Assembly: GCA_015709205.1 (NCBI GenBank) | Contig: JACCQO010000015.1 | Location: forward strand, 1-64,000 | Source of the DNA: Desulfovibrionaceae bacterium | Lineage (GTDB): Bacteria; Desulfobacterota; Desulfovibrionia; Desulfovibrionales; Desulfovibrionaceae | Direction of reading: 5' to 3' | DNA length: 64,000 nucleotides | Notes under the pieces: model-generated | What the model saw: only the letters and a program-made list of their open reading frames with translations | The model's database searches: none | What the model was told of the DNA's origin: nothing | Shown: positions 8,018 to 9,089 of the stretch, piece after piece | How positions within the stretch are numbered: position 1 is the stretch's first letter | How the letters are laid out: each line of letters begins with the position of its first letter | Program-made: the position numbers and the translations under genes

Positions 8018-8428
8018 ATGGATCTCTTCAAGGAACCCAAGCCCATAGAGGCGCCCACCAGCTGCGCCGAAACCGCGGGCACCGCGGCTGCCGGCAACGT
8101 GATCGCGGCCAGCGAGTCCACGCTGATCAGCGAGGCCCAGCTCGTGCTCGCGGAAAAACGCACGACCCTGGCCTCCATGCGCACGGGCATCGCCATCGTG
8201 GCCCTGCCCATGTCCATCATCGGCCTGCTCGTGGCCACGTCCAAGTACTACGACGCTGCAAGCACCGGGCACATGCTCATCCCGCTCCTGCTGGTCTGCG
8301 CGGGGCTGATCGCCATCGGCGGCTACCTCATCGTGCAGTCCCTGCTGAGCACGCGGCGGCTGGACAGGCGGCTGCTGGAGCTCAAGAAGATGCACCCGAG
8401 GCTGGGCCAGCTCATCGACCGGACCTGA
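8018..8428 (+). CDS. DUF202-type small membrane protein
   Basis: A 136-residue protein with a soluble ~45-residue lead, then LAEKRTTLASMRTGIAIVAL, the signature region of DUF202 (YidH-like) proteins, and two membrane helices (about residues 55-75 and 88-110) with a basic C-terminus. Function in the family is not established. It stands 95 bp after the glycosyltransferase pair and ends before a strong terminator. Confidence 0.75.
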   Translation: MDLFKEPKPIEAPTSCAETAGTAAAGNVIAASESTLISEAQLVLAEKRTTLASMRTGIAIVALPMSIIGLLVATSKYYDAASTGHMLIPLLLVCAGLIAIGGYLIVQSLLSTRRLDRRLLELKKMHPRLGQLIDRT

Positions 8429-8505
8429 GCCGGGTAGGGCCGAGCCCGATCGAAGCCTGCGCCCAATCGCGCGAACCCACCAGAATCCCTCCAGAATTCC
8501 AAAGA

Positions 8506-8534
8506 AAAAGCCCCCTCCGAAGAGGGGGCTTTCG
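8506..8534. terminator. Bidirectional rho-independent terminator
   Basis: Stem AGCCCCCTC/GAGGGGGCT around CGAA, with A-tract on one side and TTT on the other. It lies between the convergent DUF202 gene and the HesB-like gene. Confidence 0.85.
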
Positions 8535-8560
8535 ACGTCGGTCCGGACGAGGCGGAATGC

Positions 8561-8887
8561 CTAGCCGCAGCTGCAGCTGCCGCCGGTGCTGCAGCTGCCG
8601 CCGCTGCAGCCGCCGTCGCCGAGATTGAGGTTGGAAGTCACGCTGAAGCCCATGTAGGAAACGTCGATCTTCACGGGCTTGGCGCTTTCATACAGATCCT
8701 TGTCCATGACGAAGCTGAACCCCTCGATGGCGAAGGTGTCGTCGGTGTCGTGCGGCTCATCCAGAGCCAGCGATAGACGCGGACCGGATCACCCGCCCGG
8801 GGCGAGGTACACGCGGATGGGCACGATCTCCTTGTCCGCGAAGTAGGCCTGCAGCTCCTTGACGGCGCTGTCGGTCAATTCGAACAT
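8561..8887 (-). CDS. HesB/IscA-like selenoprotein with in-frame TGA at codon 33
   Basis: Reading 109 codons from ATG 8887 to TAG 8561 gives a HesB/IscA-type protein of 108 residues, interrupted only by TGA at 8789-8791. The surrounding sequence LAPGG-(TGA)-SGPRLSLALDEP lines up with LAPGGCSGPRL-type relatives, so the TGA sits exactly at the first conserved metal-binding cysteine. The other two ligands are present as C105 and C107 in the terminal CSCG; C94 and C99 add a Gly/Ser/Cys-rich tail. The frame stays open and family-like after the TGA, and a hairpin follows at SECIS distance. A good ribosome site (AGGAGG, 8893-8898) precedes the ATG. I read it as selenocysteine; HesB-like selenoproteins are a known prokaryotic family. 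Its exact role (Fe-S or other metal/selenol chemistry) is unknown. Confidence 0.87.
8754..8768 (-). promoter_or_regulatory. Putative bacterial SECIS element
   Basis: On the mRNA, 5-bp stem GGCUC/GAGCC closes a UGGAU loop (8759-8763), extendable by a U-G pair. The loop starts 26 nt after the UGA, within the usual bSECIS window, and has G at its second position. It lies wholly inside the coding sequence, as expected for SelB-dependent recoding. A weaker alternative hairpin with a UCUAU loop sits closer to the UGA. Confidence 0.65.
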
Positions 8888-8915
8888 AGATGCCTCCTAT
8901 GGTTGGGAACACTTC

Positions 8916-8944
8916 GAATTAGTCATCGGCAACATGGCTGTCAA
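8916..8944 (-). promoter_or_regulatory. Sigma-70 promoter of the HesB-like selenoprotein gene
   Basis: On the minus strand a perfect -35 TTGACA (8939-8944) and -10 TAATTC (8916-8921) are separated by 17 bp. The start site would fall about 20 nt before the AGGAGG of the selenoprotein gene. Confidence 0.7.
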
Positions 8945-9089
8945 ATAGGAAACATTGCTGGGTTGGTTCGATAACCATCTATGGATCGAGGGAAAACGGT
9001 GCCCAGCGCCGCACGCTGAGCGGGTGCAAAGGGCGGGTGGCGGTGGCTAAGAAGAGCAGGAAGGACGGGAGAGGGGGGAACAGGAGCGG

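Follow-up and report, generated by a model that had tools for sequence, protein, structure and literature searches.

A probable HesB/IscA-like selenoprotein gene with a conserved SECIS-like hairpin in a Desulfovibrionaceae bacterium

The 64,000-nucleotide stretch of DNA that we analysed (the window) very probably contains a real selenoprotein gene of the HesB/IscA-like type, one that is ordinary for its bacterial order, and comparison with related genes strongly supports reading its in-frame TGA at codon 33 as selenocysteine (Sec). The gene occupies 8561..8887 on the minus strand. Translated in frame from 8887 to 8561, it runs from an ATG to a TAG through one single TGA (8789..8791, minus strand), giving 108 residues with Sec at position 33 (MFELTDS...YLAPGGUSGPRLSLALDEP...GDGGCSGGSCSTGGSCSCG); the coordinates, strand, lone TGA at codon 33 and length of the original prediction were all verified on the sequence. 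The product ends in a Cys-rich tail (residues 93–108, encoded at 8564..8611 on the minus strand) that includes C94, C99, C105 and C107. The match of the read-through product to the NCBIfam model NF038090 (IscA_HesB_Se) covers residues 1–96, that is, either side of the TGA. Our whole explanation, in which we place high confidence, is that the gene encodes an NF038090 selenoprotein decoded through SelB and a hairpin, that the protein would be a carrier of metal or Fe-S using a selenolate as ligand, and that it probably has a Cys counterpart.

With Cys put for Sec, the window protein scores 125 bits against NF038090 (cut-off 85, E 1.3e-36). Because the NCBI annotation library includes a model for exactly this family, the gene need not escape an automatic caller, and the earlier expectation that such a caller would miss it or split it was overstated. 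Other models gave scores below their cut-offs, namely TIGR00049 (33.3 of 58.8 bits), TIGR02011 (21.7 of 150.6), TIGR01997 (17.9 of 136.2) and NF010147 (24.4 of 117). TIGR01911 (HesB_rel_seleno) gave 31.6 bits against a cut-off of 66.35, and assignment to that family was ruled out on this score.

An AlphaFold2 model built on an alignment of 38 members (pLDDT 83.1, pTM 0.70, with residues 93–108 of the tail under 50) finds its nearest solved structures in Foldseek among IscA (1x0g, E 7.5e-7; 1r94; 1s98) and SufA, the best matches being IscA, SufA, Aq_1857, HI1723 and DsrR. The predicted fold resembles that of the A-type carriers IscA, SufA and ErpA (1x0g, 1s98 and 2d2a; Foldseek E 7.5e-7 to 4.2e-5), with which the window protein also shares the conserved Cys/Sec of the GGxSG(x) loop and a match to Pfam PF01521 that is barely above the cut-off (26.9 vs 26.3 bits, C for U). 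It is unlike these carriers in that Sec replaces the first ligand, in that its tail is CSGGSCSTGGSCSCG and not CGCG, and in that it stays below the equivalog cut-offs for IscA, SufA and ErpA.

HesB-like selenoproteins are already in print for Desulfovibrio, and the window gene is a further member of the family. D. vulgaris DVU_1382 is tabulated as a TGA protein of the HesB family in the available part of one paper (PMC1914089). The excerpted text of another reports 11 HesB-like selenoproteins in total, in D. vulgaris, D. desulfuricans and others, together with Sec-to-Cys changes and, in a HesB-like gene of Cys form, remnants of SECIS-like structures (PMC1794560). A review, in the sections available, gives UxGP as the motif of HesB-like selenoproteins and groups the protein among those known from bioinformatics only (PMC13188914); TIGR01911 is named there, and in the available text of PMC9312934, as the model for them. 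The original prediction had described such proteins as known but lacking a known role, which agrees with those parts of PMC1794560 and PMC13188914. A literature search on IscA with selenocysteine in Desulfovibrio found nothing relevant.

By description, the window protein is like DVU_1382 in being of HesB type, with an in-frame TGA and a Sec aligned with Cys. The UxGP motif is present in its sequence, a feature shared with the Desulfovibrio HesB-like selenoproteins, as is membership of the same bacterial order (a kinship of the genomes searched). It is nevertheless a separate sequence from the known Desulfovibrio proteins, the highest identity in our tree set being 68% over 87 columns, though no functional difference sets it apart from them so far. 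It likewise resembles TIGR01911 proteins in carrying Sec at UxGP within a HesB/IscA-type protein, but differs from them in scoring under that model's cut-off.

The source genome (an assembly of 4.25 Mb in 120 contigs, 98% complete) carries the genes for selenocysteine insertion. Missing selB or selC had been named as grounds against the prediction; the search of the source genome found both, as well as selA and selD. A tRNA-Sec scoring 80.7 bits (gathering score 47) adjoins selB (346.1 bits, cut-off 242.25) on contig 20, and the other ten tRNA-Sec matches in the genome all fall below the gathering score. selA (568.3 bits, cut-off 267.9) lies on contig 73 and selD (333.2 bits, cut-off 125) on contig 18. 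The latter gene (G000:C18:26262-27182, L013) contains one in-frame TGA and is probably a selenoprotein gene too. A family search of the source genome recovers the window gene as a match with one TGA and reveals a second copy in Cys form (G000:C91:9510-9800, L055), which we infer is probably a selenium-independent counterpart.

We collected 150 distinct family members from 126 sequences, merging duplicate genes on their first 240 bases. The codon in question is TGA in 82 of them (the window gene included) and TGC or TGT in 57; the remaining 11, which encode some other residue there, were excluded from the U versus C counts. The claim that the TGA aligns with a conserved Cys was thus borne out, with homologues having either TGA or Cys there. 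Tryptophan, or near-cognate suppression of the UGA, would be an alternative way of reading through the codon, and an extremely improbable one, for which we found no support: relatives align a Cys with it, never a Trp being the counterpart (Cys in 57 of 139 members with U or C), UGA also serves as the terminal stop of family genes in relatives, and a hairpin described below accompanies TGA and not TGY. We rejected this reading on the Cys of the relatives.

Downstream of the TGA, comparison with relatives and folding of a 21-nucleotide piece define a SECIS-like hairpin of five base pairs with the loop UGGAU (8754..8768, minus strand). It sits inside the LALDE codons and, in the form GGCUC-UGGAY-GAGCC and variants of it with loop UGGAU or UGGAC, lies 23 to 37 bases past the T of the TGA. 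In the window two more pairs below a bulged U extend it to 8752-8771; this shape with its bulged U is like that of the E. coli fdhF element. The 21-nucleotide piece folds at −9.9 kcal/mol (z −3.29). Bacterial SECIS elements are described as hairpins after the UGA with a small apical loop containing G (PMC1088965), and the window hairpin has such a loop.

All five pairs are present in 82/82 TGA genes and in 2/57 Cys genes. The Ala codon at +8 is GCT in every one of the 82 TGA genes versus 6 of the 57 Cys genes, and a similar split appears when the count is confined to members encoding LALDE (81/81 Sec genes vs 5/46 Cys genes); by comparison, nine window reading frames with 423 Ala codons use GCT for 6 of them. 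In 59 TGA genes the outermost pair of the stem is G-C, and in 23 it is T-A. The latter are probably a single lineage, so the switch of pair counts as support and not as many independent events. In a second set (loci L126-L164), which shares 2 of its 16 TGA genes with the first and draws ten of the 16 from other families of the phylum, five of five pairs occur in 16/16 TGA genes vs 2/29 Cys genes.

Four Cys copies (L016, L052, L142 and L146) keep all five hairpin pairs intact after their TGC or TGT, like SECIS remnants. Two of them, L142 and L146, come from genomes in which no selB match exceeds the cut-off.

The TGA might instead be a true stop, in a decayed pseudogene or through a sequencing error for TGC or TGT. 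The frame is, after all, interrupted, and the window's 45 to 42 bases past the TGA fold no better than shuffles: folded as a whole, the 42 bases that begin at the TGA prefer a structure other than the hairpin (−13.4 vs −9.9 kcal/mol, z −0.67), and shuffling synonymous codons of the window gene alone gives z −0.6. Applied to all members, the synonymous-shuffle test gives a mean z of −1.60 for the 82 TGA genes vs −0.62 for the 57 Cys genes. The frame downstream of the TGA is intact, the gene has a ribosome site, the Sec machinery is complete, and the TGA recurs at the same codon in 82 distinct genes with the hairpin conserved throughout. The machinery and the 82 of 82 hairpins led us to reject a true stop, which we regard as highly improbable. 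The sel genes, the TGA/Cys homologues and the conserved hairpin together support the claim of a HesB/IscA-like selenoprotein. In the decoding that we propose, the hairpin, which starts 21 bases after the UGA, would direct SelB with Sec-tRNA to insert selenocysteine at codon 33.

The ribosome binding site that had been predicted is there, an AGGAGG at 8893..8898 on the minus strand, 5 bases before the ATG. The accompanying claim of a perfect sigma-70 promoter did not hold. A perfect TTGACA, a possible −35 element, is found at 8939..8944 (minus strand) without a good −10 beside it: the best −10 tried matches 4/6 positions at a spacing of 15 bases, and a promoter scan of 8400-9080 returned 0 sigma-70-type sites. 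With no −10 to match the TTGACA and an empty scan, the claim is therefore wrong, and we discarded that promoter. After the gene, a terminator scan marks an intrinsic-terminator-like stem-loop (8511..8526, minus strand), one site found where 0.6 were expected in shuffles.

We compared the neighbourhoods of 39 relatives by matching the stretches fetched around their genes to the window's own proteins; a clustering of open frames was discarded for shadow-frame artefacts. pyrR, which the window has at roughly 10.4-11.0 kb, is present in 34 of the 39 stretches, argB in 12 and hslU in 8. We know of no functional link between pyrR and the HesB-like selenoprotein. No Fe-S operon was seen beside the gene among the 39 stretches so compared.

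Across the order, the TGA form tracks the presence of selB. We surveyed 298 genomes of the order, of which 252 have selB over the cut-off and 46 do not. The other families of the order contribute 56 genomes, 50 of them with selB, and a TGA copy is present in 48 of these 50. Of the 46 genomes lacking selB, a family match is found in 39, of which 30 carry Cys copies alone and nine retain a TGA copy. Fisher's test on these counts gives p 1.7e-13, with the qualification that kinship among the genomes breaks their independence and that sampling was not the same for the two groups. Most of the nine are incomplete drafts, five of them less than 85% complete. One genome, G087, is 99% complete, has no selB over the cut-off and holds a TGA copy with an intact hairpin (L139) adjoining a Cys copy.

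NF038090 finds a match in 285 of the 298 genomes of the order, and is over its cut-off in 0 of 14 named control genomes; at E 1e-12 the family is found in 206 of 395 genomes of the phylum. The TGA copy is the only family match in 28 of the 56 genomes from the order's other families. Local amplification of the family is seen in two genomes, G188 and G213, with nine and seven family matches, respectively.

In the 39 stretches around TGA genes, a Cys copy is also present in 26 and absent from 13. On a tree of 139 rows and 88 columns, the Sec and Cys labels require 19 changes, at least 13 of them forced by well-supported branches. A single Cys clade is rejected with a p-AU of 4.94e-42, a value obtained on 88 columns with some long (Cys) branches and for a Cys group defined by its trait after the data were seen. 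On this test we ruled out one ancient Cys paralogue clade. The exact figures from the tree are less secure for the small number of columns and the length of the Cys branches. Either repeated Sec-to-Cys duplication or gene conversion between neighbours would give the pattern in the tree.

Some copies carry neither residue. In genus g7, a third tandem paralogue (L033, L035, L036, L037, L040, L042, L044 and L086) has its Sec/Cys position taken by Glu, Asp or Ala; it keeps SGPRL, is without the chalcogen ligand and has a short tail that finishes with HH or H. At L116 three family copies stand in a row, one of which has Lys in place of Sec and a tail lengthened by CSS repeats.

What the protein does is suggested by its fold and by the place of the Sec. 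In canonical A-type carriers a C-terminal CGC supplies a pair of ligands. The alignment places residue 33 at the position of the first IscA ligand, as the original prediction had it; its assignment of the remaining two ligands to C105 and C107 was not established. The CGC motif of IscA is absent from the window protein. Across the 38 aligned members C105 is invariant, C94 and C99 are nearly so and C107 is not listed, in a tail whose alignment is unreliable. A CxC occurs in the tail of 19 of the 82 Sec members, and pLDDT in the tail is under 50. The conservation would point to C94, C99 and C105 as a trio and not to a CxC pair. With no CGC motif and a tail modelled at low confidence, metal binding rests on analogy. 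As fold and ligand position suggest, the most likely role of the protein is that of a carrier for metal or Fe-S. In an A-type carrier fold, the selenolate at residue 33 would occupy the first cluster ligand position of IscA proteins; with cysteines of the mobile C-terminal tail it would probably bind iron, an Fe-S cluster or another soft metal, and a metal-loaded dimer or oligomer may then hand on its cargo.

A less likely function is redox chemistry or the detoxification of metals or metalloids, with the selenolate as nucleophile or soft-metal trap, and not Fe-S delivery. The tail, rich in Gly, Ser and Cys and with 3–5 Cys after the core in 82/82 Sec members, would suit such a role, as would the missing CGC motif of Fe-S carriers and the scores far from the IscA, SufA and ErpA equivalogs. 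DsrR, which is IscA-like and is not known to bind a cluster, is among the structural matches, and the review cited above, in the sections available, calls most uncharacterised selenoproteins probable redox proteins (PMC13188914). Against this stand the IscA fold and the Sec at a ligand position, and the order's apparent lack of other A-type carriers, which leaves the HesB family as the candidate. TIGR00049, used at E 1e-14 or better to find ordinary IscA, SufA or ErpA, matched 0 of the order's 298 genomes and 8 of 14 control genomes; the lack of an ordinary carrier refers here to matches above or close to the TIGR00049 cut-off and does not extend to every possible carrier. A Pfam search of the source genome at E 0.01 gave no matches and likewise missed the window gene; such searches therefore overlook members this divergent, and divergent carriers may be present. 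With 0 of 298 genomes matching TIGR00049, the order seems to lack ordinary A-type carriers, and the HesB family is what remains of the fold.

Taken further, a carrier role for the selenoprotein admits a broader reading, which we offer tentatively and consider doubtful. In this order the Sec/Cys HesB pair may have taken over the entire A-type carrier role, the selenoprotein being the main Fe-S carrier, and Cys copies may repeatedly have budded off or been re-made next to Sec copies as selenium-independent counterparts, through recurrent duplication with a Sec-to-Cys change or through gene conversion, while the hairpin-bearing Sec copy was kept. Behind this reading stand TIGR00049 matches in 0/298 genomes, NF038090 matches in 285/298, a TGA copy alone in 28/56, the 19 label changes (13 forced), the rejection of one Cys clade and the intact hairpins downstream of the Cys codon in a few Cys copies.

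The window gene adds one member to a predicted selenoprotein family. Nearly every genome of the order has this HesB-like family, which is the obvious candidate for the A-type carrier job, and its Sec and Cys copies often lie side by side. This raises the question of what selenium contributes to the fold, and why Cys copies recur without displacing the Sec copy.
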